Both the position numbers and the translations under genes were made by a program. Below are positions 4,371-17,998 of a stretch of 22,094 nt of DNA, piece after piece. The DNA is taken from positions 1 to 22,094 of IMG/VR virus record IMGVR_UViG_3300036046_000036. One strand, 5' to 3'. The number at the start of each line of letters is the position of its first letter. The first letter of the stretch is position 1. Under the pieces are notes generated by a model, which did not search any database, had not been told where the DNA came from, and saw only the letters and a program-made list of their open reading frames with translations. Source of the DNA: a virus.

Positions 4371-5432
4371 TTAGGCTCCTTGGATTTTCTGGATATCAGC
4401 GGGCGCAAGGCCCAGCTGGGAACAGATGGCCAGCGCATCGCCGGTCACTTCGGCAGGGCCGCCGCCCGTCTTGGTGTCACGGCCAGCCGACTGCTGGCTG
4501 CTGAGGGCGGCGATCTTGGGGACGGCCTCCAGGTAGTTCTTGAAGCCTGGCAAATCCTTCTTGCCGAAATCGCGCGCCCAACTCTCCAGGGCAGGCGTCA
4601 GGCGGCCATCGCTGAGCGCAGCAGTCACCAGCTGCTCCAGCTCACCCGCACCGGCGCTGGACTTCAGCTGGGCCATTTCCGTCTGGAGGGCCGTCAATGC
4701 GGCAATGGGCACGTACTTGGCTGGGTCCGGGGCAGCATTGACTTGTGTCGACAGCGCCGCGACCTGGCTGGTCAGCGCGGCGGCCTGCCCGGCTTGGGTG
4801 TTGAGGGCGGCGATCTTGGCGTTGATCTCTTCATCGCTAGCCGTCTCCGGCAGGCCAAGCGCCTTGCATAGGGCTACTTTGTCCACGGTGTTCTCCGAGG
4901 TGGGTTGTTCAGGGGTGAATTGGTACGAGGCAGCCGCCAGGTTGAGGTCCTGGAGGTTGTCGAGGGCGGGGGTGTTGGTGATGGCGACGTGCAGCAGCGC
5001 GAGGACGTCGCCGGTCTTGTCGTCGTAGGCAAATACCGGGGACTGGTATTTGTATTCCTTGGCCGCGATGTAGCCGCTGGCCTTATCGGTCCAGGTGACC
5101 GCGCCATAGAGACCACCGGGTTCGCCGTCGGCCGGCTCTTTCCAGGTGAGCGAGGCCGGGGCAATCCAGCCTGCAGCGGGGGCAGGCTGCCCGTTCTGGG
5201 CGGCCTTCATGGTCTGGTGCTCGTAGTCCACCACGTACTGCACGTGCTGCGCTGCAGCGGCGGCAATGATCTTGGCGGCGTTCTTGGCCGTCATACGCCA
5301 GGCAGGCACCTCGGTCGGTCGACCGTCACGCGCCCTGAATTCGCCAGCAGGCAGGATGTGCAGCAGCCCGTCCTCACGCGGGGTGATTTCGAGGCTGAGG
5401 GCTGCGATTTGGGGGGCGGTTTTGCGAGACAT
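4371..5432 (-). CDS. Head maturation protease / scaffold, Mu gpI family
   Basis: The 353-aa protein has the two-part layout of Mu gpI. Residues about 10-165 form the protease domain, with a conserved VVDYEHQT segment (His72) and EYKYQSPVF (Ser131), the likely catalytic His and Ser of this serine-protease family. Residues about 180-353 are Ala/Gln-rich and helical (AALTSQVAALSTQVNAA), as expected for an internal scaffold. In Mu a shorter scaffold (Z) is made from the 3' part of I; a similar internal start is possible but not clear here. The ATG at 5432 has no convincing Shine-Dalgarno and lies next to a hairpin, and the shared late element lies 27 nt upstream, so this gene probably opens its own transcription unit. 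Confidence 0.93.
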   Translation of the reverse strand: MSRKTAPQIAALSLEITPREDGLLHILPAGEFRARDGRPTEVPAWRMTAKNAAKIIAAAAAQHVQYVVDYEHQTMKAAQNGQPAPAAGWIAPASLTWKEPADGEPGGLYGAVTWTDKASGYIAAKEYKYQSPVFAYDDKTGDVLALLHVAITNTPALDNLQDLNLAAASYQFTPEQPTSENTVDKVALCKALGLPETASDEEINAKIAALNTQAGQAAALTSQVAALSTQVNAAPDPAKYVPIAALTALQTEMAQLKSSAGAGELEQLVTAALSDGRLTPALESWARDFGKKDLPGFKNYLEAVPKIAALSSQQSAGRDTKTGGGPAEVTGDALAICSQLGLAPADIQKIQGA

Positions 5433-5449
5433 GCCGCCATGGTGGCGGC
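5433..5449 (-). promoter_or_regulatory. 7-bp hairpin touching the start codon of gene I
   Basis: The plus strand reads GCCGCCA-TGG-TGGCGGC, a perfect 7-bp stem with a 3-nt loop that begins one base upstream of the gene I ATG, where a ribosome binding site would be expected. An out-of-frame ATG lies in the loop. A structured, Shine-Dalgarno-less start could limit translation of the protease, but it may be chance in GC-rich sequence. Confidence 0.4.
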
Positions 5450-5459
5450 GGCCTCGCGT

Positions 5460-5483
5460 GGGGTCGTTTGAACTGGTTCAGAA
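5460..5483 (-). promoter_or_regulatory. Late-operon element, copy 1 (upstream of gene I)
   Basis: This 24-bp stretch matches 14198-14221 at 22 of 24 positions. Its core on the plus strand is TGAACTGGTTCA (5469-5480), an inverted repeat with 5-bp arms TGAAC/GTTCA, flanked by GGGGTC on one side and GAA on the other. It lies 27 nt before the gene I start. In Mu a late promoter (PI) precedes gene I and is switched on by the C activator, so this is a candidate activator-binding site or promoter. The rest of the 187-nt gap between G and I holds an AT-rich patch with the palindrome GTTTATAAAC (5546-5555) and no gene. Confidence 0.6.
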
Positions 5484-5619
5484 CAAATTCACAGCTGGCG
5501 CCGATATTGCGAGGGCGACAGACGGAACGCTCCGGCACGTAAACCGTTTATAAACCGATTTCGCCCATTAACAGGGGTGACGACAAGCAAGGGTGGCAGC
5601 AAAGGGGCGTGGTCGGCGT

Positions 5620-6192
5620 TTAGCCCGCTAGTGCGCCTTGCAGTTCTCGCGTCAGTTTGCCCAGGATCACATGTCGATCATCGTTCGAGATACCGAGGTA
5701 TGGCCGGGCCGGAATGTTCACTTCGTGCTCGCCTATCGTCACCCACTGCGCGAAGTTGGATTTGCTCTTCTTCACGAACAGGTTCGAGACCGTGCCGCTC
5801 TTCTCGTCGTACTTGAAGTAAGCCCGCTGGCTGCGCGCCGCGTGCTTGATGGCGCCGCCGAACTGATGGATAGCCGCATAGGGTTTGGTGACCTGACCAG
5901 GGCCGAACAGCAGCACATCGTCGCTGGGCTGCTGGTAGGTCATGCTGTCGCGTAGGTTTAGCGTTTCGCCGTGCAGGGGCTTATTGATGCCGAACTTGGG
6001 TGTGCGTGGGCTGTTGGCCGCCCAGGGCACGCCGTCCGAGCTGACGGCATCGTCGAAGCGTTTGCGGTGCGAGAGGATCAGGTACTCGCCGATCTCGGCC
6101 ATCACCGGACGCGTGTTATGCAGCGTATCGATCAGGCGGCGCAGCGCCTGTCGAACCTGCTGATCCTCATACTGGATATCGACGTCGATCAA
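5620..6192 (-). CDS. Virion morphogenesis protein, Mu gpG / tail completion family
   Basis: The 190-aa product matches the phage virion morphogenesis family (Pfam Phage_tail_S; Mu gpG): a helical N-terminus (QVRQALRRLIDTLHNTRPVM), then EIGEYLILSHRKRFDDAVS, SSDGVPWAANSP, the 'LHGETLNLRDSMTY' segment, YAAIHQFGG, and IPARPYLGIS near the end. It is needed for tail completion or head-tail joining. The start is a TTG at 6192-6190: an in-frame TGA lies two codons upstream, the next ATG is at residue 31, and AAGGGA lies about 7 nt before the TTG. The gene is separated from F by a 112-nt gap in which I see no gene. Confidence 0.9.
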   Translation of the reverse strand: MIDVDIQYEDQQVRQALRRLIDTLHNTRPVMAEIGEYLILSHRKRFDDAVSSDGVPWAANSPRTPKFGINKPLHGETLNLRDSMTYQQPSDDVLLFGPGQVTKPYAAIHQFGGAIKHAARSQRAYFKYDEKSGTVSNLFVKKSKSNFAQWVTIGEHEVNIPARPYLGISNDDRHVILGKLTRELQGALAG

Positions 6193-6304
6193 TTGTCAGT
6201 CCCTTACACCTGGTGCAATAATCAAATTCGAGTAGCACCCTAGCTCCACCTGATCGGAGGGGCCGTCGAGCTGGGGGCGGGACGCCTGACCGATCAAGGG
6301 CGGC

Positions 6305-7555
6305 CTACTCATCACTGCCATCCTGGCGCCGATACAGGCGCACACCCTGCCGGTTCCGGCGCAGCAAATCCTCCATCGTGGTGCCCTCGTCGCGGACGTG
6401 CGATGTCACGCCCAGCCAGCCATCCGGCCCCCAATCGAATACCGAGATACCGGCCTGCTCGCCTTCGCCCACCGCCCATTGGGCGATATAGCGTCGGCGC
6501 AGCACAAAGCGCTGCAGCACGCCGTGCCACTCCAGCTTGGCCCATACCTCGTCCGGCTCCTGGATCGAGATGGCCAGCATGGGCAGGTACGCCTCGCGCC
6601 CGGCCTTCTGCACCTTCCAGTTGCCGTTCTTGCGCTTCTTGAACAGCTCCTCATTGATCAGCAGCGGTTCACCCGTCACATCGGTATGGACAACCGGCTT
6701 GCCGATGGCCGCGCCGAACTCGCCCAGGAAGGCATCCACATACGCCTCGTCGGCCAGACCGGGCGGCAGCAGAGAGTCGGCCGGGAAGCGCCGAGGTGTG
6801 GGCAGGGCATCGCTGGCCAGCTTGGCCGGGATGGACGGGATCTGGCTGGGCCAGCCGTCCAGTTGCTCGGGCGTCATACGCTTGAGCCAGGCCGCACCTG
6901 GGCGATGCTGGAAACCAGGATCAACGCCCATGGGCAGCTCGGTCACTTCACCCGTATCCCGGTCGGTGTACTCGTACGTACCGTCATCGGGTGTGGCGTC
7001 TGGCCCATCCTTGCCCAGCAAGCGCAGCTCGTCGGGGCCAATGGCAAATTTCTTGCACTTGCAGCCGTAGCCATTCATGGGCGAGTGCGTATCCCACCAC
7101 GGGTCATCAGCACGCAGCACCTTGCCGTCCCAGCTCTTATGCAAGGGGCGGAAGCGCTCGGCACCGCTATGCCGGTACTGCAGGTAAGGCATGCGGCGGC
7201 GGAACTCGGGGTCGGCGAACTGCGCCTCCCGGCCAGCGTTATAGGTCTGGCGGACATTGGTTTCGTAGATCACCTTGGCCCGCCAGCCTGGCTTGCCCCT
7301 ATAGCTCCAACCATGCCTGGCCACGATGCTGTCGAATTCCTTACGGAAATCGCCCAGGGTGCGGCCCTCGCGGATGGCGCGGTCAACGGCAGTGCGGAAG
7401 TCTTCCAGGACATCCATCTTGGTGGCGCCGGCCACCACAAAGGCGTGGTCGTGCGCGGCGGACTCGATGTCGTTCCAGGCATTGGTGGGCAGATTCACCT
7501 TGCCCCGGAAGAAGTCCAGCTGCTCGGCAAACGGGAGTGTGGCAAAGCTAGGCAC
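6305..7555 (-). CDS. MuF head-morphogenesis protein with C-terminal PBECR2-like nuclease domain
   Basis: The 416-aa protein begins with a Mu F / SPP1 gp7-type minor head domain (about residues 30-175): helices around ETNVRQTYNAGREAQF and the closing motif WDTHSPMNGYGCKCKKF with C165 and C167. After a linker (about 180-280), residues about 285-410 carry KPVVHTDVTGEPLLINEELF, then ISIQEPDEVWAKLEWHGV, RFVLRRRYIAQW and a final RQGVRLYRR. I recognise this as a phage Barnase-EndoU-ColicinE5/D-RelE-like nuclease domain of the PBECR2 type, often fused to MuF. Such domains are predicted RNase-fold toxins carried in the virion. The GTG start at 7555 overlaps the portal stop by 8 nt. The MuF part is certain; the toxin activity is inferred. 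Confidence 0.88.
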   Translation of the reverse strand: MPSFATLPFAEQLDFFRGKVNLPTNAWNDIESAAHDHAFVVAGATKMDVLEDFRTAVDRAIREGRTLGDFRKEFDSIVARHGWSYRGKPGWRAKVIYETNVRQTYNAGREAQFADPEFRRRMPYLQYRHSGAERFRPLHKSWDGKVLRADDPWWDTHSPMNGYGCKCKKFAIGPDELRLLGKDGPDATPDDGTYEYTDRDTGEVTELPMGVDPGFQHRPGAAWLKRMTPEQLDGWPSQIPSIPAKLASDALPTPRRFPADSLLPPGLADEAYVDAFLGEFGAAIGKPVVHTDVTGEPLLINEELFKKRKNGNWKVQKAGREAYLPMLAISIQEPDEVWAKLEWHGVLQRFVLRRRYIAQWAVGEGEQAGISVFDWGPDGWLGVTSHVRDEGTTMEDLLRRNRQGVRLYRRQDGSDE

Positions 7556-9113
7556 CGTTCAGCACCTCATAGCGCCCGGCCAGTGTGGCGGCCTGCAGGG
7601 CCGCCGCCATCACCGCCTGGAACTGGCTGGCATCCATCTGGGCATAGGCACCCATCAGCCCGTCCCGCAGCTCTTCCAGGCTGTTGGCCTTGGCGACCAG
7701 GTCGGCAATCGGGGCGATCAGCGCGTCCTGGGCGGCCTCGCCAAGTAGGCGCTGCATCTGCAGCTCGGGCGTGTCGGCCTCGTCGGTCTGGGCCAGCTGC
7801 AGGCTCAGGGCTGCCAGCTTGGTACGCAGCTCGGCCACGGGCGTATCGCTGGCCGGTGGGGTGACCTGACGGCCGAGCAGCTTGGCGCCGGCCTTGGGTG
7901 TAGGAATGCGTAGCTTGCCGCGTACCCATTCCTCTTCGATCTCGACGCCCATGTCCACCAGGCCAGGCAGCGCATCGGCGTACAGCTTGAGGTCTTCCGC
8001 CTCGCCCAGATCAAACACCAGGCGTGGCACCCGCTTGGGGTCGGCCCCGGAGCGGTTGATGGCCAGCATGGGCCACAGCACCTGCATGCGCAGGGTGCGG
8101 GCGATCTGTCGGGCATCGCTCTCGGCAATATCCAGGCGCACCTCGTTGTGCACATTGCCCAGGGCATTGGTGCTGCTCTTGCCGTCGGCCTGGGTGGTCA
8201 GGGTCTGGCCGAGAATGACTTTGGAGACGGTCTTCTCGCACCAGGACACCATAAATTCGAACGGGTCGTGCGTCCCAGCTGCGGCTGTCTGGAAGTCAAT
8301 CTCCATGCCATGCGGAACGATCCCGGCCGCCGAGTGGCCGATCTGCATCACCGCGCGCAGCAGCGTCAGCTTCTCGTCGTCGGTGGCGCCTGCAGGGTAT
8401 TTGCCCAGGCGCAGTGGCAGGCCATAGATCTCCAGGAACTCGGCCAGGTCGCGCAGGCTGAAGTTCTTGAACAGATAGGGCCAGGCCAGCGTGCGGTGCA
8501 GGCCACCGCGCGCCACGTAGCCGGACTTGGAGCGATGCACATGCATCACCCAGCCGAACACGTTCAGTTCTTCGGGCTGGCCACCGAGGTTGAGCAGCAG
8601 CTTGTTCGGGTCATCGACATGGGTGGTGAACCAGGACTGCGGCCGACTGGTGAAATACGGCAGGCGCGCTTTGCCCTCCTGGCGCCATTCAATCTCATGG
8701 GCGGCGAAGCCATGGCCAATCGCATCCAGGCTGTCGAAGAGCAGGTCTTCGAAGTCGATGGATTCCAGGTGCTCCTTCAGCCACTCGGCATCGGCCTTCT
8801 CCCTGGCCGAGGCATCCTCGGGCGGAAAGATGTCCCAATCCACGCCAGTCAGCGCACCCTTGCGCTTGGACATCTCGGTCAGGATGTGGCCGTCCTTTTC
8901 CTCCATGTCGCGGAACAGGTCGTGTTGATCGACCAGGTTGCCGCGCTCTGCATTCAGGAGGATGCGCGCCAGCTTGGCCGGGGTCAGCCCGGACGAGGGA
9001 TGCTCCTCGTAGATGCGCCGAAAGCTGCCCAAGCGGGCGGTCTGCTTGTCATCCAGGGCCGCGCGCTCGAATGGCCGGCCGAATTGGTCAACGATTTGCA
9101 TGTGATTTGTCAT
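7548..9113 (-). CDS. Portal protein, Mu gp29 / DUF935 family
   Basis: The 521-aa product is a DUF935 (Mu gp29-like) portal protein, the dodecameric ring at the capsid vertex through which DNA enters and leaves. Typical segments are SSGLTPAKLARILLNAERGN, a 'DMEEKDGHILTEMSKRKGAL' helix, 'DAIGHGFAAHEIEW', LRDLAEFLEIYGLPLRLGKY, and 'VSKVILGQTLTTQADGKSS'. The C-terminal third (DEADTPELQMQRLLGEAAQD onward) is helical and acidic, matching other portals. Length is normal for the family. ATG 9113 is two bases from the terminase stop; an alternative ATG five codons in is possible. Confidence 0.95.
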   Translation of the reverse strand: MTNHMQIVDQFGRPFERAALDDKQTARLGSFRRIYEEHPSSGLTPAKLARILLNAERGNLVDQHDLFRDMEEKDGHILTEMSKRKGALTGVDWDIFPPEDASAREKADAEWLKEHLESIDFEDLLFDSLDAIGHGFAAHEIEWRQEGKARLPYFTSRPQSWFTTHVDDPNKLLLNLGGQPEELNVFGWVMHVHRSKSGYVARGGLHRTLAWPYLFKNFSLRDLAEFLEIYGLPLRLGKYPAGATDDEKLTLLRAVMQIGHSAAGIVPHGMEIDFQTAAAGTHDPFEFMVSWCEKTVSKVILGQTLTTQADGKSSTNALGNVHNEVRLDIAESDARQIARTLRMQVLWPMLAINRSGADPKRVPRLVFDLGEAEDLKLYADALPGLVDMGVEIEEEWVRGKLRIPTPKAGAKLLGRQVTPPASDTPVAELRTKLAALSLQLAQTDEADTPELQMQRLLGEAAQDALIAPIADLVAKANSLEELRDGLMGAYAQMDASQFQAVMAAALQAATLAGRYEVLNGA

Positions 9114-9115
9114 CC

Positions 9116-10753
9116 CTACCAGGCACCGGCACCGAAGCCGCTGCCGAAGTGTTCGTCGTGTTCAGCACGGGCCGCCCGGCCCGCGTCCATGTAGCCGATC
9201 TCGGCCGCGAGGTTGTAGCTGGCGAAGTTGGCCAGGCAGAGCCCGATGGCGAAGTCGCCGTGGCGCAGCAGATCGGGGTCTTTGATGTCCTTAGTACGGA
9301 TGGCCGGCACCATGGGGATGCCGTTGACCTCCTCGATAGCGCGCAGATCGCCGGTCAGGTCGGCGTCGGCCGGCATGTCGATCATCCCGTCCTGGAACAG
9401 GTCGATCATCTTGGGCATCCACAGCCCGTACCACGCCTGGCTGAGCGTGACCTGGTGCACGTGGGTGGCGCCGAACTCGTCGGCGGTGTACTCAGCCAGG
9501 GTCTGTCCGGAGCCGGTGGCGTCGATGGCCACGCCGCTGAAACGCGGCAGGCCACGGATCAGTGCCCACAGGATCTGCTCCTGCTGGCGGGTCGGCACCT
9601 TGTGCAGCTCAATGGCGAAAGGCACGTCGCGGCGCAGGGATTGAGTGATCGCCATCGGTGCGATCTCGCTGAAGTCGCGGTGGCGCGCATAGTCCATGCC
9701 GCCCACGTGGCGCAAAGTCTTGTCCAGCCGGAGCAGCTCGGGCTTGAGGTTTTTTTCGATCCAGCCATCGGCCCAGGCACGGCGCTCCAGGTCGGGCAGC
9801 TTGGCGAAGTCGTCATCCAGTGCCAGGCGCAGCACCGTGCGCCCCTGGCGGGCGGCGTTCTCAATCCACACACCAGGCAGGCACACGCCATTGCCTTCCC
9901 GTGGGATGGCATCCAGCTCCTCGCGCATGGCGGCCTTGCGCACGCCATAGCCGTTGCGGATTTTGGCGTACCACTTCTTTTTGTCCTCGGTGGTGGGCGT
10001 CCAGCCGCGCATCATGCACACGCGCTCGTACAGGCCATTGGCCACCGCGTCGTCGAAGGTCACGGTAAACACCGCCGCGTCATCCCCGTACTTGCCCGAC
10101 TCGATATCCTTCACCAGCTGGTTGAACGGGTTGCGGCTGCCGTTGTGCGAGGAGATGACCACGATCTCGCCGCCCCAGATCAGCAGCGCGGTGGCTGCAT
10201 CGAGCACGCCCTGGACGTCGCTATGGAAGGCCGCCTCGTCGATCACCACCTTGCCCTGCAGGCCGCGAATATTGGCCGGCCGGCTTGAGAGGGCCGTAAC
10301 CTGGAAGCCGCTACTAAAGCGGATGCGGTAGCTGGTGATGTGTTTGGTCTTACCGTCCGCATCCTGGTCTTCGAACAGGAACTCCTCAATCTGCGACACG
10401 CCCTGTTCCTGGGCGCGGGCGATCACGCGGGCGAACTTGGCGCAATAGCCAACGAATTCCAGGCCCTTTTCCTTGGTGTCGCCGATGTAATAGATGTTGT
10501 CGCCGCCAGCGCTCTTGCGCGAGGCGGCCTTGATGGTGTCATCCAGGGCTTCGCAGAAGGTGATGCCGGTACGGCGGCCCTTGGGCGCGACCTTGATGGA
10601 CGCCTTGATGGCGAGGAAGGCGGCCTGGTGGCGCATCAGAACGCCCTCGGCCAGCGGGTTGAAATTGTCCGGCACCTCGCGCGCGCTGGGCGGCAGCTCG
10701 TCCCATTCGACCACGCGCAGCGTGCTGGCCAGCGGTTTGACCACGGCGGCCAT
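9116..10753 (-). CDS. Terminase large subunit, Mu gp28 family
   Basis: The 545-aa product is a Mu gp28-like large terminase, the ATP-driven motor and nuclease that packages phage DNA. The ATPase part has a divergent Walker A at about residues 54-64 (KVAPKGRRTGI) and a Walker B at 169-173 (VVIDE, D172/E173), followed by the 'ISSHNGSRNPF' coupling segment. The C-terminal RNase H-like nuclease domain shows acidic positions in GGMDYARHRDFSE (D354), VAIDATGSGQTL (D411) and LRHGDFAIGL. In Mu-type phages it cuts host DNA beside the integrated genome during headful packaging. The ATG overlaps the small-subunit stop by one base (TAATG). Confidence 0.95.
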   Translation of the reverse strand: MAAVVKPLASTLRVVEWDELPPSAREVPDNFNPLAEGVLMRHQAAFLAIKASIKVAPKGRRTGITFCEALDDTIKAASRKSAGGDNIYYIGDTKEKGLEFVGYCAKFARVIARAQEQGVSQIEEFLFEDQDADGKTKHITSYRIRFSSGFQVTALSSRPANIRGLQGKVVIDEAAFHSDVQGVLDAATALLIWGGEIVVISSHNGSRNPFNQLVKDIESGKYGDDAAVFTVTFDDAVANGLYERVCMMRGWTPTTEDKKKWYAKIRNGYGVRKAAMREELDAIPREGNGVCLPGVWIENAARQGRTVLRLALDDDFAKLPDLERRAWADGWIEKNLKPELLRLDKTLRHVGGMDYARHRDFSEIAPMAITQSLRRDVPFAIELHKVPTRQQEQILWALIRGLPRFSGVAIDATGSGQTLAEYTADEFGATHVHQVTLSQAWYGLWMPKMIDLFQDGMIDMPADADLTGDLRAIEEVNGIPMVPAIRTKDIKDPDLLRHGDFAIGLCLANFASYNLAAEIGYMDAGRAARAEHDEHFGSGFGAGAW

Positions 10754-11301
10754 TACCCGATCCCCAGCACTTGCTGACGCCAGAACAGCACCTGGTCTTC
10801 CGACATGCCCTGGGCGCGCGCGTGCTTGTCCAAGTTGGCTTCCTGCTCGCGCAGCAACTTGTCTCGGGCGGCCTGCTCGATCACCTGACGCTCCTTGATG
10901 GACATGGTGCGCGCCTGCATGGCCGAGCGGGCGGCACGGGCCAGCTCGCCGACTTCCTTGATGCTGATCTCGTCGTTTTCCATCCCGCGCAAGGCAGCAT
11001 TCGCGGCCAGGGTGGTCACGGCCTGGGCCAGCAGCGCGCCTGACTTGTCGCCCATGCCCTCACCCAGTTCGCCCACGATGACGGCCGCGCCGGCCTCAAT
11101 CTCGCGCATGCGCCCGGCCATCTCTTCAAAGCCGATCTTGTAGCGATGCAGGCCCGAGCGGCTGGGCAACTCCTCGGCCGGGAAGGCGGCGCGGATATCG
11201 TCCAGCATCTCGTCCAGGGTCAGCCGGTCCTCGCGCAGTAGGCGCTCGATATGCTTACGCGCCTCCGGGCTGAGGCGCTTCACGCTCGATTGGCGGGCCA
11301 C
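10753..11301 (-). CDS. Terminase small subunit, Mu gp27 / DUF3486
   Basis: The 182-aa protein carries the DUF3486 signature: 'RQSSVKRLSPEARKHIERLL', 'LTLDEMLDDIRAAFP', 'LPSRSGLHRYKIGFEEMAGR', followed by a long helical C-terminus (AARSAMQARTMSIKERQVIE). The N-terminal helix-turn-helix recognises the packaging site and recruits the large subunit. The start is GTG 11301-11299 with GGGAG about 6 nt upstream, because no in-frame ATG precedes it. It lies directly between gp26 and the large subunit, as in Mu and BcepMu. Confidence 0.92.
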   Translation of the reverse strand: MARQSSVKRLSPEARKHIERLLREDRLTLDEMLDDIRAAFPAEELPSRSGLHRYKIGFEEMAGRMREIEAGAAVIVGELGEGMGDKSGALLAQAVTTLAANAALRGMENDEISIKEVGELARAARSAMQARTMSIKERQVIEQAARDKLLREQEANLDKHARAQGMSEDQVLFWRQQVLGIG

Positions 11302-11302
11302 A

Positions 11303-11596
11303 TCAAGCTCCCGGCTTCTTCACGCCTGGCACGCTGGCGCGGCCCTTGGCCACATCGCTGCCGCGCTCGGTCAAGGTGGCCACCACCACCGGCCCCAGGT
11401 CTTCGCACTTCACCAGACCCTGCTCGGCCAGCCAGTGCAGCTCGGTCTTCACTTGGTCGCGGGTCGGGGAGTGGCCAATCCGGTCCAGGCCGGCCACGAG
11501 CACGCTGCTGTTCGCCTTGTAGGCCGGCATCTCGCCAAGCAGGCGCAGGATCACCAGGCGCATGTCCTCGCGCAGGTATTCGGCAAAATCGCCCAT
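11303..11596 (-). CDS. Mu gp26-like winged-helix protein (VpaChn25_0724-type)
   Basis: A 97-aa protein with a compact winged-helix look: 'EYLREDMRLVILRLLGEMPAY', a second helix 'NSSVLVAGLDRIGHSPTRDQ', the recognition-like helix VKTELHWLAEQGLVKCEDLG and a wing VVVATLTERGSDVAKGR. Small ArsR-like proteins of this sort precede the small terminase in many Mu-like phages (Mu gp26 position; annotated as VpaChn25_0724 family). The role is not established; involvement in packaging or late regulation is plausible. GGGAG lies 7 nt before the ATG. Confidence 0.85.
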   Translation of the reverse strand: MGDFAEYLREDMRLVILRLLGEMPAYKANSSVLVAGLDRIGHSPTRDQVKTELHWLAEQGLVKCEDLGPVVVATLTERGSDVAKGRASVPGVKKPGA

Positions 11597-11606
11597 TACG
11601 GTCTCC

Positions 11607-12035
11607 CTATGTTCTGTTCAGCAGATAGTCGTTAACGCGATCCATGCTGCGTACCAGCGGATCAAGCGCCCCATTGAACTCACCGCGCAGGCTGTGCAGC
11701 TCTTTGGCCACCATATCCATGCGCTCATGAATGCGATTCAGGTCTTCCTTGTTGGGCGCCCCTGCGACGATCTTTTCCAGTTCGCCGACCCGGTCGGCCA
11801 GCTTCTCGTCCTCATGGGTCAGCTGGCCGATCTTCTGGTCGACCTGGTCAAAGCGCTGATCGATCTTGCCCTTCGATTCCGATTCCGCCTTGTCACGGGT
11901 TTCGAAGCGCTCGGTCAGCAGCCGGTCGTATTGCTTCGCAGTCACCTGGGCTACAGCCCAAAAGCCGCCGACGACAACGATCAGACCCGCGCCCAGGGCG
12001 CTGAGCAGTTGCCAGAATTCGATTTGCAGGGTCAT
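11607..12035 (-). CDS. Small membrane-anchored coiled-coil protein, DUF2730 / Mu gp25-like
   Basis: I start at ATG 12035, overlapping the upstream stop as ATGA, giving 142 aa; the longer frame to 12083 is rejected. Residues about 8-30 form one transmembrane helix (LLSALGAGLIVVVGGFWAVA). The rest is a charged coiled coil with heptad-like spacing (KIDQRFDQVDQKIGQLTHED, VGELEKIVAGAP, IHERMDMVAKELHSL). This fits DUF2730 proteins found between the lysis genes and terminase in Mu-like phages (Mu gp25 position). The function is unknown; an inner-membrane accessory of lysis or head assembly is possible. Confidence 0.82.
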   Translation of the reverse strand: MTLQIEFWQLLSALGAGLIVVVGGFWAVAQVTAKQYDRLLTERFETRDKAESESKGKIDQRFDQVDQKIGQLTHEDEKLADRVGELEKIVAGAPNKEDLNRIHERMDMVAKELHSLRGEFNGALDPLVRSMDRVNDYLLNRT

Positions 12036-12292
12036 TCGTAGCGTCTCCGCAGTACGGGGTTTTTCTCGATACGTGCCTGGCACACCACGCAGAAGCGGCA
12101 GCCCGGCTCTGCCTCACGGCGGCCTTCGGGGATCGGGGCGCCACAGTCGGCCAGCTCGCAGAACTCGGCCGAGACCGGGTGCTCAAGCTGGCGGCGGGCC
12201 TTGGCTTCGCGGATCTGGGCCAGGGTGGTGTTTTCAGCCAGGGCGCGGAATTCGGCGTCCAGCTGCTGCGCTTCATCAAATTGGTCGGTCAT
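12032..12292 (-). CDS. DksA/TraR-type C4 zinc-finger protein
   Basis: Start at ATG 12292 (overlapping the Rz stop as ATGA) gives 86 aa. An N-terminal helix (AEFRALAENTTLAQIREAKA) is followed by the zinc finger: C45 and C50, then GAPIPEGRREA, then C65, C68 and C71. The segment CGAPIPEGRR..PGCRFCVVCQ is the standard DksA/TraR finger, although the first pair is spaced CELADC where the family normally has C-x2-C. Host DksA binds the RNA polymerase secondary channel; short phage versions of the TraR type may do so without ppGpp. It is placed in the lysis-to-head operon, so it would be made late. Confidence 0.88.
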   Translation of the reverse strand: MTDQFDEAQQLDAEFRALAENTTLAQIREAKARRQLEHPVSAEFCELADCGAPIPEGRREAEPGCRFCVVCQARIEKNPVLRRRYE

Positions 12293-12927
12293 TCGGCGGC
12301 TTTGAAATCGGTTAATCGGTCGCGCTGCTGCTCGATCTGCTGGCACCAGGTGCCGACGTCGATGGCGTGCTGGAGGAGGTCGAGCTGGGTGACACCGCTA
12401 TCGGCCAGTTCGTCTGCCCATAGCCCGGAACCAGCGGTCCCGGCTTGGTCGGCTTGCTGCCCAGGGCTGGCGGTATCGGTACCGGCTGGCTCGGCTCGCA
12501 GGCCGAAGGCGGCGTTCCAGTCGCGCACGAAGCCAGCGGTAAAGACAGTGCGAGGGATAGGCACAGGCTCAGCGCTTGGCGCAGGCCGGTAGACTGTCGT
12601 GACATGGGTAGCTCTCCGTTGCAGTTGCAGGCGCAGCTGCTCGATCTGCACCCGGTGATCAATGACGGCCTGGGCCAGCTGGTCAGCCTGCTCGACCTGG
12701 ACGCGGTAGCGGCTGAATGCACGCTGGCTGCTCTCAGCCTGGTGTAGCGCGGCATCGCGAGCAGCCGTGGCCAGCTCGGCCTGGCCGAGGGCGGTGGCAT
12801 GGGCCGCCCCATAGCGCCAGCCGAGGAAGCCAGTGACGACGGCCAGGCACAGGGCGGCAAAGCAAAGCCAGCCGACCAGCTTGGCGACCGTGCTGCGGTA
12901 GGTAATCAGGGGGGCGGCCGGAATCAT
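12289..12927 (-). CDS. Rz-like inner-membrane spanin
   Basis: The 212-aa product has an N-terminal transmembrane helix (residues about 15-37, LVGWLCFAALCLAVVTGFLG) followed by a long periplasmic helix (AELATAARDAALHQAESSQR, VEQADQLAQAVIDHRVQIEQ), the layout of an i-spanin. It directly follows the endolysin (ATGA overlap) and contains an Rz1-like lipoprotein gene in another frame, which secures the call. With Rz1 it would span the periplasm and fuse inner and outer membranes in the last step of lysis. The C-terminal half (after about residue 115) is longer than in lambda Rz and codes Pro/Gly-rich sequence, partly because it shares DNA with Rz1. Confidence 0.88.
   Translation of the reverse strand: MIPAAPLITYRSTVAKLVGWLCFAALCLAVVTGFLGWRYGAAHATALGQAELATAARDAALHQAESSQRAFSRYRVQVEQADQLAQAVIDHRVQIEQLRLQLQRRATHVTTVYRPAPSAEPVPIPRTVFTAGFVRDWNAAFGLRAEPAGTDTASPGQQADQAGTAGSGLWADELADSGVTQLDLLQHAIDVGTWCQQIEQQRDRLTDFKAAE
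12312..12605 (-). CDS. Rz1-like outer-membrane lipoprotein spanin, nested in Rz
   Basis: This 97-aa gene lies wholly inside the Rz gene in a different frame. The start is ATG 12605, with GGAG about 8 nt upstream. It encodes a lipoprotein signal (RQALSLCLSLALSLPLASC) with lipobox L-A-S-C and lipidation at Cys27. The mature part begins with a Pro-rich stretch (PPSACEPSQPVPIPPALG), the mark of Rz1 o-spanins, and ends in a Ser/Thr-rich tail. It would sit in the outer membrane and bind the Rz periplasmic helix. The long Ser-rich C-terminus is constrained by the overlapping Rz frame and may be dispensable. Confidence 0.87.
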   Translation of the reverse strand: MSRQSTGLRQALSLCLSLALSLPLASCATGTPPSACEPSQPVPIPPALGSKPTKPGPLVPGYGQTNWPIAVSPSSTSSSTPSTSAPGASRSSSSATD

Positions 12928-13601
12928 GCGCAGACCCCTGCACCAAAACCGGCCGCGATATAGCGCGGCTCATGCCGCTTGAGGATGCGTTGCGGATATC
13001 CGCGGTTCTCGGTCCAGGCCGCCCTGGAGCGGCCAGCGTTGACGGCCTCAACCGAGCCGAACCACACCAGCGGGTCGGCGCCCTTCGCCGATGCCAAGCG
13101 CTTGTCGCGGATCACCCAGCCCAGGCCGCCGTTGTAGGCAGACAGCGCAAAGGCCCATTGCTCGCAGGGCGTGCGTCCCTTCACCCGCTGCAGCAGCCAA
13201 CGGTCGTACACCACCAAGGCGCGGATATCCCAAGCGGGCTGCATCACGGCCCAGGTGCCTGGGCGGGCTTTGAGCGAGGGGTCGACCGTGGCAATCCAGT
13301 CTGCGGTGGCGGGCATGAATTGCGCCATGCCACGCGCCCCGACCGGGCTGAGCGCATTACTGCGCCAGCCGCTCTCCTGGTGCAGCTGCGCGGCCATGGT
13401 GGCGATGGGCGGATTCATGCCCATCAAGGCGCGTGCCTCGCGCACCAGGGCGCGCTTGTGCTGGTAAGCACCCGCAGGCAGATCGGCCGCTTTGACGCTG
13501 AGTGCCAGGCCCAGCAGCACGCCGATCACCAGCGCGGCGCGCAGCATGACCACCAGGAACGGCCGGTACATGGCGAAAAGGATTTTGAGGATAGAGGACA
13601 C
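12924..13601 (-). CDS. Endolysin: SLT-type lytic transglycosylase
   Basis: The 225-aa protein carries a soluble-lytic-transglycosylase domain. The catalytic Glu is in AAQLHQESGWRSNALSP (E76), followed by the typical GARGMAQFMPATADW and later ALSAYNGGLGWV. It would cleave the MurNAc-GlcNAc bond of peptidoglycan. Residues about 12-38 are strongly hydrophobic and end at SVKAAD, a signal peptide or signal-arrest-release anchor, so export may not need a holin hole. I choose GTG 13601 because GGGG lies about 8 nt upstream and it starts 3 nt after the holin stop; the ATG at 13571 lacks a ribosome site. Confidence 0.92.
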   Translation of the reverse strand: MSSILKILFAMYRPFLVVMLRAALVIGVLLGLALSVKAADLPAGAYQHKRALVREARALMGMNPPIATMAAQLHQESGWRSNALSPVGARGMAQFMPATADWIATVDPSLKARPGTWAVMQPAWDIRALVVYDRWLLQRVKGRTPCEQWAFALSAYNGGLGWVIRDKRLASAKGADPLVWFGSVEAVNAGRSRAAWTENRGYPQRILKRHEPRYIAAGFGAGVCA

Positions 13602-13603
13602 GG

Positions 13604-13975
13604 CTACATCCCCAGGCTGACGCCAAGGACGCACATACCGACGATCAGCGCGCGCCGTAGCTGCGCCACAGCGAACAGCATCTCGGCACCCGCGATCACC
13701 GGAAAGTCCACCTGGATGTCCGAGCCGACATTGTCGGGCTGCCAGTCGGCATGGCCGTCCTGCAGGAAGCTGTCAGGGCGGGCATAGGGGAACAGCACGC
13801 AGTCGATCACATAGGCCACGCAGGCGGCCAGCATGACCAGGGTGATCTTGTAGAACGCGATATGCAGCGGGTTCGGCGCGGTAGTTACCGTGGCCGGGGC
13901 AAGCATGTGCAGGGTAAACAGCAGGCCGGCCGTGGTGAACAGCCAAAGCATGCGCCAGACGACATTGCGGGTCAT
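13604..13975 (-). CDS. Putative holin with three membrane segments
   Basis: Start at ATG 13975 with GGGAGG 6 nt upstream gives 123 aa. Three hydrophobic helices are visible: residues about 8-27 (RMLWLFTTAGLLFTLHML), 43-62 (KITLVMLAACVAYVIDCVLF) and 108-123 (RALIVGMCVLGVSLGM), with a polar loop between the second and third. Size, topology and position just before the endolysin match the putative holins of BcepMu-like phages (Phage_holin_8 type). It would form the timed lesion in the inner membrane. Its ATG overlaps the stop of the Cys-rich gene as ATGA. Confidence 0.82.
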   Translation of the reverse strand: MTRNVVWRMLWLFTTAGLLFTLHMLAPATVTTAPNPLHIAFYKITLVMLAACVAYVIDCVLFPYARPDSFLQDGHADWQPDNVGSDIQVDFPVIAGAEMLFAVAQLRRALIVGMCVLGVSLGM

Positions 13976-14169
13976 TTCGCACCTCCCAGGGGGCGTGGTT
14001 GGAATCGGGAGGGAACAAGCCCGCAAGGGCGTCGGGCCGAAAAATACCGGCCGTGGCTGTCAGCGATCTGGCAAAGAAAGGCGCCTTCCATACGAGCGTC
14101 GGATGGCGCTGTTGCGTTGCTGCAGAAACTGCAGCCTTTGGGATGGTCGACGGTCAGGGCTTGTTCCAT
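13972..14169 (-). CDS. Small Cys-rich protein, first gene of the late/lysis operon
   Basis: A 65-aa frame starting MEQALTVDHPKGCSFCSNAT and ending RPLGGAK. It has a CxxC pair (C13, C16) and later Cys at KGAFLC-type and RRPCGLVPS positions, which suggests metal binding. Evidence that it is real: coherent codon use, an ATGA overlap with the holin start, and a start codon 28 nt from the conserved late element, the same spacing as at gene I. Against it: no Shine-Dalgarno before the ATG, as at gene I. The function is unknown; a late regulator or lysis accessory is possible. Confidence 0.6.
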   Translation of the reverse strand: MEQALTVDHPKGCSFCSNATAPSDARMEGAFLCQIADSHGRYFSARRPCGLVPSRFQPRPLGGAK

Positions 14170-14197
14170 GACCGCGAGTTTGGAGGGGTGCCGTTCG

Positions 14198-14221
14198 GGG
14201 GTCTTTTGAACTCGTTCAGAA
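14198..14221 (-). promoter_or_regulatory. Late-operon element, copy 2 (upstream of lysis operon)
   Basis: This matches 5460-5483 with only two differences. The core on the plus strand is TGAACTCGTTCA (14207-14218), with inverted 5-bp arms TGAAC/GTTCA, flanked by GGGGTC and GAA. It lies 28 nt before the first late gene, the place of the Mu Plys late promoter. The two base changes leave both arms of the inverted repeat intact, which argues for selection on a dimeric protein site. No good sigma-70 hexamers are seen around it, as expected for an activator-dependent promoter. Confidence 0.6.
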
Positions 14222-14339: not shown

Positions 14340-14361
14340 AAACGGCCCAAATGGGCCGTTT
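14340..14361 (-). terminator. Intrinsic terminator of the lysogeny operon (possibly bidirectional)
   Basis: A perfect 10-bp stem AAACGGCCCA / TGGGCCGTTT with an AA loop. Read leftward it ends in a run of T (six consecutive A on the plus strand at 14337-14342), a textbook rho-independent terminator. It lies 37 nt after the stop of the 243-aa gene, so it ends the repressor transcript before the lysis genes. Read rightward it is followed by TTTCGTTTT and could also work. Confidence 0.9.
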
Positions 14362-15130: not shown

Positions 15131-15765
15131 AAACGCTCCAGCACTACTCTGACTCGTCGCGCAGCCATGACTGGCCGTGCCATATGTATGGCCGTCATCA
15201 TCAGGCTAATGCCCATGGCAATCATGGCCGCAATCCATGCGAGTTGCTCTGGTGTAGCACTGGAGCCCTTGAGCGCCTGCGGTAAGCACGCGCCGAACAA
15301 GAGCACAGCTGCGCCAATCACGGCGGTCAGCATCGGGAAAAAGATGTCGTACCAGGCGATTTTGACGGCTAATCGGCCATCCTTCTCCAGTACCAGGTTC
15401 AGGTTATTCCAGGCCCGTGTGATGTCGTCCGGTCGGATCGAACCATCGCCGAACAGCAGATACAGCTGTTCCCGCTCTTTGCGATAGGCGCGCATTCTGG
15501 TGCGCTCATAAAACTGTTCATAACGGAACTGTTCTTCCAGCGCATCGGCGTGCAGATCACGGATCGGCACCTCCATGGTTGCCAATACCCGCACCTGTTC
15601 CCGCATCTGGTCGCGGGCACCGCCAGCCAGGGAACTCAGGCCGAGCTGCTCACCACTGACATGCAGATTAATCTTTTCAATGTTGTAGTGAGTTATCGGC
15701 CCATGGTTGTTGATGTCGCGCCATGCGGCTTGGCTACCCTTTGTTGCCTTTACTTCCCTGCTCAT
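15115..15765 (-). CDS. Predicted membrane protein with coiled coil, unknown function (lysogeny operon, 216 aa)
   Basis: Start at ATG 15765, with GGGGG about 5 nt upstream, inside the 3' end of the repressor gene (32-nt overlap). The N-terminal 40 residues (REVKATKGSQAAWRDINNHG, THYNIEKINLHVSG) resemble the repressor's own tail. Residues about 55-120 are a charged helix (EQFRYEQFYERTRMRAYRKE), and two transmembrane helices follow at about 139-161 (WYDIFFPMLTAVIGAAVLLF) and 175-195 (LAWIAAMIAMGISLMMTAIH), with a short basic C-terminus. No known family is recognised. The operon position with the repressor suggests a lysogenic-conversion or exclusion protein acting with the next membrane protein. 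Confidence 0.82.
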   Translation of the reverse strand: MSREVKATKGSQAAWRDINNHGPITHYNIEKINLHVSGEQLGLSSLAGGARDQMREQVRVLATMEVPIRDLHADALEEQFRYEQFYERTRMRAYRKEREQLYLLFGDGSIRPDDITRAWNNLNLVLEKDGRLAVKIAWYDIFFPMLTAVIGAAVLLFGACLPQALKGSSATPEQLAWIAAMIAMGISLMMTAIHMARPVMAARRVRVVLERLCISH

Positions 15766-16180
15766 CTTTCCCCCTGGTTTCAATATTGAAGACACCGCCC
15801 CAGGCGGCTTGTGCACCGCTCTTCGCCTTTACGACTTGTTTTGTTGATCCTGATGGCTGGGTAGTGTTTTCACCACCCAACATCATGAATGCCAGCATCC
15901 GCTTCTTGGTGGCCGCGTCGAGTGCGCGGTAGCCGTCCAATAGCACCTGTTCATCTGCAGATAGCAGCTCCGCGCTGCCCACTCCTGAGCCAGTTAACAC
16001 CCAGGCCGGGTCCACCTTAAATATCTCTTTCAAGGCGAGCAAAGACCCTCCGTCTGGAAGAGCCTCATCACTCTCCCAGCGTGTAATCGTCTTGCGATTC
16101 ACCCCAAGCAATTCTGCGAATTCACCTACTCCGCGCGTGCCGCGAGTGTGGCGAATACGTTGCCCAACCGTTTGGGACAT
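15734..16180 (-). CDS. Lysogeny repressor, XRE-type helix-turn-helix
   Basis: Start at ATG 16180 (AGGGG about 5 nt upstream) gives 148 aa. A longer frame to 16225 would place the operator palindrome inside the gene and is rejected. Residues about 5-60 are a lambda-repressor-like domain (GQRIRHTRGTRGVGEFAELL, GVNRKTITRWESDEALPDGG), then ALKEIFKVDPAWVLTGSG, the typical close of Cro/CI HTH domains. The C-terminal half is short and lacks an S24 peptidase Ser-Lys pair, so SOS-triggered self-cleavage is unlikely. It sits beside the palindromic operator and divergent to the early operon, so it most likely represses early transcription and may regulate itself. Confidence 0.9.
   Translation of the reverse strand: MSQTVGQRIRHTRGTRGVGEFAELLGVNRKTITRWESDEALPDGGSLLALKEIFKVDPAWVLTGSGVGSAELLSADEQVLLDGYRALDAATKKRMLAFMMLGGENTTQPSGSTKQVVKAKSGAQAAWGGVFNIETRGKDEQGSKGNKG
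16172..16179. promoter_or_regulatory. Extra repressor half-site overlapping the repressor start
   Basis: TTGGGACA here repeats the arm of the 16195-16216 palindrome in the same orientation and covers the repressor start codon. Together with CCCAA at 16163-16167 it forms a second, outward-facing dyad CCCAA-CCGT-TTGGG. It may be a weak secondary operator for autoregulation. Confidence 0.45.
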
Positions 16181-16189
16181 AAAAACCCC

Positions 16190-16218
16190 TTTACATTGGG
16201 ACATTTGTGTCCCAATAT
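16190..16218 (+). promoter_or_regulatory. Possible rightward early promoter
   Basis: TTTACA (16190-16195; 5 of 6 to the -35 consensus) is followed after 17 bp by CAATAT (16213-16218; a weak -10). The operator palindrome fills the spacer, which would make repression direct. This is a weak promoter match, and the resulting leader before the first early gene would be about 160 nt. I see no better early promoter nearer to 16386. Confidence 0.35.
16195..16216. promoter_or_regulatory. Repressor operator, 22-bp palindrome
   Basis: ATTGGGACA-TTTG-TGTCCCAAT: perfect 9-bp arms around a 4-bp centre, located 15 bp upstream of the repressor start codon. The size fits a dimeric XRE-family repressor. The same half-site recurs at 16172-16179. 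Confidence 0.75.
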
Positions 16219-16300
16219 TCACCACATCGAAACGCGGATCACCTCGTTAGACCACAAAGCAAAGCGCCATGACTGCCATCACAGAACGCCCTGCTGCTAC

Positions 16301-16924: not shown

Positions 16925-17032
16925 GTCGGTGCTCCTGTTTTCGATGGGTGCATTGTCATCACGGCCACGTCGGCCCGATAGGCCGAAAGCGGATTTTTGA
17001 TTGGAAGCGGTAAGGAAAAGGGACTTCCAGAG

Positions 17033-17503
17033 ATGAAGACAAATTGGAAAACAGTGCAGCCGAACAGCTTGCTGCATGCCCTGCGCCTGTCGAAAGACTT
17101 CGCCCGCGAGCGGCACAACCTCTCGGTTGAACGCATTGCGGACAGGATGGGTATCGGCGCAGACCTGCTCTACAAGTGGCTGGCAAATGGCCGCCTTCCG
17201 GCCATCCTCATCCCCAACTACGAGACGGTGTGCGGCTGCCACTTTGTCAGCCAATGGCTGGCCATGTCGGCCGGAAAGCTGGTGATCGACATCCCGGCTG
17301 GCCGCAATGCCGGCGCCCGCGATGTGCATCGCCTGCAGGGCCTGCTGAACGACGCAGCCGGCCAGATCATCAAGTTTGCCGAAGGCGCGAGCGATGCCGC
17401 CACGACCCTGGCCGCCATCCTGGCGGGCATGGCCGGCCTGGCCTGGCACAAAACCAACATCGAAAAGCATGTCCAGCCCGAGCTGGCTTTTACGGAGGAA
17501 TGA
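17033..17503 (+). CDS. Phage CII-like regulatory protein (Phage_CP76 type)
   Basis: ATG 17033 gives 156 aa; a TTG at 16997 is possible but adds an unlikely tail. The N-terminal half has a helix-turn-helix (LSVERIADRMGIGADLLYKW, then LANGRLPAILIPNYETVCGC) followed by HFVSQWLAMSAGKLVIDIPA, the typical core of the phage regulatory protein CII (CP76) family. The C-terminal half is helical (RLQGLLNDAAGQIIKFAEGA, AAILAGMAGLAWHKTNIEKH). It is likely a transcription regulator of the lysis-lysogeny choice or early genes. It ends with an ATGA overlap at the next gene, and that gene's GGAGG lies inside its last codons. Confidence 0.82.
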   Translation: MKTNWKTVQPNSLLHALRLSKDFARERHNLSVERIADRMGIGADLLYKWLANGRLPAILIPNYETVCGCHFVSQWLAMSAGKLVIDIPAGRNAGARDVHRLQGLLNDAAGQIIKFAEGASDAATTLAAILAGMAGLAWHKTNIEKHVQPELAFTEE

Positions 17504-17505
17504 GC

Positions 17506-17697
17506 ATGTCGCCCGATTTCATCATCAGCCACGCCTACGCCAGGCACGTACCGGACATGGAGCGCGGCTTCACCATCCAGACCAACTATGGCGATCTGAC
17601 CATTGAGTCCAGCGAAGCCGAACCGTTTCAGACCCTGCTGCGCAAGACCCTGGAAGCCCGTTTGACCAAGCTGAACGCCGAGACCGGCAATGAGTAA
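17506..17697 (+). CDS. Small early protein of unknown function (63 aa)
   Basis: ATG 17506 is preferred to ATG 17500 because GGAGG (17494-17498) is then 7 nt away. The product (SPDFIISHAYARHVPDMERG, FTIQTNYGDLTIESSEAEPF, QTLLRKTLEARLTKLNAETG) looks like a small alpha/beta fold. It overlaps the following gene by 8 nt, so the chain is probably translationally coupled. I do not recognise the family. Confidence 0.75.
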   Translation: MSPDFIISHAYARHVPDMERGFTIQTNYGDLTIESSEAEPFQTLLRKTLEARLTKLNAETGNE

Positions 17698-17998
17698 GGG
17701 CCAAACCATCAGCAGCGGCATCCGCATCCTGCGCGTCTTCAAAGCCCTGGGCGGCCATGCAATCACCGGCATCAGCGTTACCGAGCTGGCCAACCTGGTC
17801 GGCGATTCGCCCACAAACGTGGTGCGTGCGCTGAACACCCTGCTGGAAGAAGGCATGGCCACCAAGCTGGACAACGGCCGCTATGCCCACAGCGTGGCCG
17901 TGCTGCAGATCGCCTTCCGTCACTCCGAACATATCAACCGCCTGCAAGGCCGTATCGGTGAGCTGCAACAGCGCATCGCAGCCGGCGCACAACATTAA
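17690..17998 (+). CDS. IclR-like winged-helix DNA-binding protein
   Basis: A 102-aa protein with an IclR-type N-terminal domain only: 'SSGIRILRVFKALGGHAITG', 'ISVTELANLVGDSPTNVVRA' (helix-turn-helix), then LNTLLEEGMATKLDNGRYAH (wing), followed by a C-terminal helix 'HINRLQGRIGELQQRIAAGA' that could dimerise. It lacks the effector-binding domain of host IclR regulators. Stand-alone domains of this sort occur in the early operon of Mu-like phages. Its target is unknown; early gene or transposase control is likely. Confidence 0.82.
   Translation: MSKGQTISSGIRILRVFKALGGHAITGISVTELANLVGDSPTNVVRALNTLLEEGMATKLDNGRYAHSVAVLQIAFRHSEHINRLQGRIGELQQRIAAGAQH

Follow-up and report, generated by a model that had tools for sequence, protein, structure and literature searches.

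The window analysed here, the whole of a 22-kb virus record (22,094 nt) of a transposable phage, carries the terminase, portal, protease and major head protein genes on the minus strand. The plus strand encodes transposase A and the transposition ATPase. The window phage is a B3/BcepMu-like transposable phage. Gene I, encoding the head maturation protease/scaffold, lies at 4371–5432 (minus strand) with no in-frame start codon upstream of 5432. The holin gene (13604–13975, minus), the first recognised gene of the lysis operon, has a strong Shine-Dalgarno sequence, and its start is overlapped by a 65-aa open reading frame (13972–14169, minus). Further upstream, the repressor operon (15816–14399, minus) is parted from the lysis region by a hairpin terminator at 14340–14361, which is followed by a T run on the minus strand. 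The early operon is cut off by the end of the window, within which no Mor/C-family gene was found.

Two copies of a 24-bp element, at 5460–5483 and 14198–14221, are identical at 22 of 24 positions and lie on the same strand, each consisting of the arms TGAAC/GTTCA around a 2-bp centre. They stand 27 and 28 nt before ATG codons at 5432 and 14169. Since the minus strand encodes the late genes, the functional reading of the element is TTCTGAACNAGTTCAAANGACCCC, which on that strand precedes gene I (head protease) and the lysis operon. Predicted activator dyads of the late promoters PI and Plys thus have their centres between 5475 and 5474 and between 14213 and 14212, respectively. A −10-type hexamer is found past each of them on the minus strand, CACCAT (5439–5444) for PI and CAAACT (14177–14182) for Plys, in both cases with its first base 31 nt past the dyad centre. 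Both hexamers are weak, and a generic sigma-70 scan called a promoter at neither dyad site. A sequence-only reading of this DNA had drawn attention to the repeat, its inverted arms, its spacing to the start codons and the lack of a Shine-Dalgarno at both, and our scan bears out each of these points, the pairing at the two starts being weak (−4.8 and −2.4 kcal/mol, compared with −11.5 kcal/mol for the holin). Its placing of the lysis-side copy also holds, but the first lysis gene that it named there is the 65-aa frame, which may not be real: it has no PHROG or Pfam match, and no homolog was found. Its ATG is at +2 of the predicted Plys start, and it could instead be a leader that is not translated. 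The frame, which is situated between Plys and the holin gene, contains cysteine.

That there are just two copies in the window might suggest a leftover duplication or a chance repeat. We give this explanation virtually no credence and regard it as refuted, as no copy with up to 3 mismatches arose in 100 dinucleotide shuffles of the window (the window itself holds none at this threshold beyond the two described), and the same paired arrangement, in other sequences, is found in many relatives.

Relatives were gathered with TerL (75 loci from bacterial genomes, plus phage records), which served better than gene I alone, a query that returned few and distant relatives from viral contigs. A search for the exact window element gave no match in 2.9 million viral contigs. 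The scan for the same letters that the sequence-only reading had advised fails because the letters vary among phages, while the position, the symmetry and the 31-nt spacing to the −10 stay constant. Within each phage we compared the sequences on either side of TerL. In B3/BcepMu-like relatives, a near-identical dyad pair of phage-specific sequence occupies the same two places, with CTCTTTAAACCCGATTAAAAG in Pseudomonas, AATCGGAAGCCTTTCCGCC in Acinetobacter, TATCTGCCCGAGGGCAGATTAC in enterobacterial phages, TGCCCTCGGCCAAAAGACC in Comamonas, ATTTTCGGTCCGCCGAAAAGCC in B3, GTGAACCCGTGCAAATGACC in phiSHP3/Bhz63 and TTTTGCCCGCGTTCAAAAGAC in Bordetella. The best 22-mer identity reached at least 19 in 23 of 72 loci within the phage, compared with 7 of 288 cross-phage pairings used as the control; as pairs were chosen by identity and dyad, this within-phage identity is partly selected. 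The −10, the extra copies, the correlation with Mor and the position of the start codon played no part in the selection. By the strict test about two thirds of the TerL loci have no clear pair, a shifted gene I or a replaced module accounting for part of them, and several alpha-proteobacterial pairs (L061, L071, L072 and L075 among them) were excluded as GC-rich hairpins that are possibly terminators. Comparison with the relatives thus supports a putative late-regulon signal at the places of Mu Plys and PI, conserved upstream of the lysis and I genes in place and build though not in letters. A search of open papers other than the original genome reports of B3 and BcepMu turned up no description of such sites in B3/BcepMu-like phages.

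Alignment of 41 non-redundant copies on the dyad centre revealed a second conserved block, CANNATGG, at +31, separated from the dyad by a gap free of signal. A −10-type hexamer, with A and T in the −10 register, is present at +31 in 29 of the 41 copies, while the best other offset accounts for 5 of 41. In 46 viral contigs examined afterwards under the same pair rule, many of them close relatives, about 31 top pairs by our own count have a −10 at each of the two copies, its position varying by −1 to +2 nt. A dyad centre near −43, together with a −10 and without a usable −35, is a feature of Mu-type Mor/C promoters that the copies described here share. At Mu Pm, which has no −35, its place is taken by a 16-bp Mor-binding dyad with 5-bp arms and a 6-bp spacer, centred at −43.5 (PMC4390567; PMC4287176). 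Upstream of Mu com/mom we find the dyad ATTATGCC/CCAATAAC with the hexamer TAAGAT about 32 nt past its centre. The geometry also bears on whether the element might act in RNA, as a 5′ hairpin or a protein-binding site before the start codons, as its partial self-complementarity and its nearness to those codons could suggest. Given the −10 at +31, however, the dyad is upstream of the predicted start and hence absent from the predicted PI and Plys transcripts; furthermore, the dyads diverge without keeping a strong RNA hairpin, and the hairpin at the −10 is a separate one. A role in RNA is extremely unlikely.

The sequence-only reading had supposed an otherwise unknown activator whose gene may lie outside the window. 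Its location is supported by the relatives, but the activator is not of an unknown kind, since they encode a Mor/C-family protein with whose helix-turn-helix (HTH) the dyad co-varies. Mor is encoded in 46 of the 47 genomes or records behind the loci, usually 11–17 kb upstream of TerL on the opposite strand and mostly at the end of the early operon. In two loci, L007 (6161–6478) and L009 (326–646), it precedes the lysis region on the late strand, and the L028 genome (Mor locus L127) has two tandem Mor-like stretches in one open frame. One Mor, searched by sequence against solved structures, gave no match. Element distance correlates with that of the Mor HTH (r = 0.69) and with that of TerL (0.45); in partial Mantel tests the value for Mor HTH given TerL is 0.60 (p = 0.0005), compared with 0.17 for the TerL counterpart, and the dereplicated partial for Mor HTH is 0.53 (p = 0.0002). 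The element follows TnpA distance as well (partial 0.35 given Mor), so that shared descent explains part of the co-variation signal.

Two other kinds of regulator can be weighed against the same distances. If the dyads were operators of the phage repressor (XRE, 15734–16225), silencing the late operons in the lysogen, a palindrome adjoining the start codons would be expected, repressor operators being usually palindromic. However, no copy with up to 3 mismatches is present in the repressor/early intergenic region, the fixed distance to the −10 suits an activator, and element distance is hardly correlated with that of the repressor (r = 0.18, partial 0.16 given Mor, compared with 0.68 for Mor); we consider this reading very unlikely. 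The activator might instead be another regulator of the early operon, either the IclR-like PHROG 1368 (17690–17998) or the CII-like PHROG 101 (16997–17503), both of which are DNA-binding families with distances that follow the element (r = 0.51 and 0.55). These correlations drop to 0.30 and 0.23 given Mor HTH, whereas Mor retains 0.57 and 0.37 given them. The CII-like protein is also found in only 16 of 31 phages, and the known promoter architecture that matches belongs to the Mor family rather than to either PHROG. It is therefore improbable that one of these two proteins is the activator.

The correspondence between Mor and the dyad extends to classes of recognition helix. Mor helices of the form SxxxxY pair in most cases with TTTAA-N6-TTAAA sites (L016 and L070 being looser), and TExxxRK helices pair with other sites. 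Among enterobacterial phages, L021 has SxxxxY and TTTAA-N6-TTAAA, whereas its neighbours have TExxxRK and another site. The Mor class also led us to single sites in L010, L023, L030, L032 and L057 and to pairs in L037 and L039. By transposase, the nearest relative is L158, which combines an SLQWIY helix with a TTTAA-type site, while L174, found by its transposase, has a TERG helix and a site like those of the window's class. Because the window site falls in the TExxxRK class, we infer that the window phage has a Mor of the T-E-x-x-x-R-K helix type. Co-variation in the relatives supports an activator specificity that matches the dyad, an argument that is indirect for the window phage.

As in Mu-type Mor/C-dependent late promoters, where dyads measure about 16–18 bp, the dyads occur at more than one late operon, with two in the window and three or four in several relatives. 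Where a third or fourth copy occurs, it is on the late strand and stands ahead of tail or baseplate genes: the tape-measure gene in B3 (26826) and Fc02 (25614), a tail protein in some Pseudomonas loci, and baseplate wedge genes in L008, L016, L033 and L081. The genes behind these copies are the counterpart of the Mu P operon. A third copy ahead of the tail operon, which the sequence-only reading had suggested looking for, is thus present in relatives, but for the window phage that place lies outside the window. Fc02 has copies before the holin, the protease and the tape-measure gene. RNA-seq of this phage is reported to show three late clusters, the first starting at the holin-endolysin and the second, of virion genes, ending at a terminator; mor closes its early operon (PMC9936078). 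At the level of clusters, the three dyad copies fit the three late RNA clusters.

Taken together, it is highly probable that the dyads are Mor/C-family activator sites of the late promoters Plys and PI. The gene of this activator would close the early operon outside the window; a dimer of its product would bind the dyad, centred near −43 and standing in for the −35 element, and would allow host sigma-70 RNA polymerase to start at a −10 of the CANNAT type. Since dyad and activator change together, each phage line would have a private late regulon. In Mu, C activates the late promoters Plys, PI, PP and Pmom. The arrangement described here resembles these promoters in having copies before the lysis genes, gene I and, in relatives, tail genes, in the replacement of the −35 by a dyad, and in its predicted dependence on one Mor/C-family activator; it differs in that the dyad letters are not those of Mu and vary among phages, and in that the ATG of gene I coincides with the predicted transcription start. 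A strict Mu C regulon was rejected, as the TGAAC-NN-GTTCA of the window lacks the TTAT and ATAA arms of the C site TTAT-N-ATAA. The resemblance to Mor at Mu Pm lies in the protein family and in the form of the Pseudomonas TTTAA-N6-TTAAA class, which shares the 5-bp arms and 6-bp spacer. However, Mu Mor turns on the middle operon that produces C, whereas here a Mor-family protein appears to act on the late operons directly; in the inspected relatives Mor ends an early operon opposite to the late genes, while in Mu both Mor and then C are on the late strand. Mu is the textbook case of Mor/C activation, with few mapped sites. With the natural activator/site specificities described here, at least six in number and all of one geometry, the code by which Mor-family proteins recognise DNA can be tested, and late regulons can be annotated in a large group of phages and prophages.

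With +1 placed seven nt after the −10, the predicted PI transcription start in the window is the A of the gene I ATG (5432, minus strand); the gene has no upstream in-frame start and a weak Shine-Dalgarno. In a set of 70 gene I copies that have a −10, taken without dereplication, an ATG that opens a frame of 60 codons or more is at +1 in 21, at +2 in 8 and at +4 in 1, compared with 0.8 per cent in the control window, and 22 of these 30 starts, by our own count, have no in-frame ATG or GTG upstream before a stop. This suggests that PI RNA would begin on the ATG, and that in the window phage and many relatives the mRNA from which gene I is translated is probably leaderless. The start codon at the predicted 5′ end recalls the leaderless phage mRNAs of lambda cI (from pRM) and P2 gene V; unlike these, the predicted case concerns a head-operon gene in many phages, with the start codon just past a hairpin that holds the −10. 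In the window this inverted repeat, GCCGCC-ACCAT-GGCGGC (5433–5449, minus), surrounds the PI −10 directly before the ATG (RNA fold z = −4.9). Most phages with a predicted leaderless gene I have such a hairpin with the −10 in its loop, and most Pseudomonas and enterobacterial phages without a leaderless start do not. RNA reading through from Plys would fold the hairpin, holding the former −10, right before an AUG that has no Shine-Dalgarno. It is conceivable, although we hold it only tentatively and as rather less than probable, that in much of the group gene I is translated solely from its own late-promoter mRNA beginning at AUG. PI would then double as a translation gate, making head assembly depend on the Mor-type activator. 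A −10 enclosed in a hairpin just before a gene I start predicted to be leaderless suggests that promoter choice and translation are linked.

At the lysis promoters of L027, L041, L042 and L043, the predicted late start coincides with part of a terminator-like hairpin that has a T run. Transcripts reading through could thus end at this point, whereas those initiated at the promoter would lack the full first arm. A further palindrome, TTTATAAA, has its sole copy in the window at 5547–5554, preceding the PI dyad centre by 80 nt. Of 34 relatives, 14 have one copy at a distance of 80–93 or 115 nt before that centre, often as the sole copy of the locus and never upstream of Plys, with spacings that step near a helical turn. 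The palindrome is located in the G–I gap, where Mu has its strong gyrase site.
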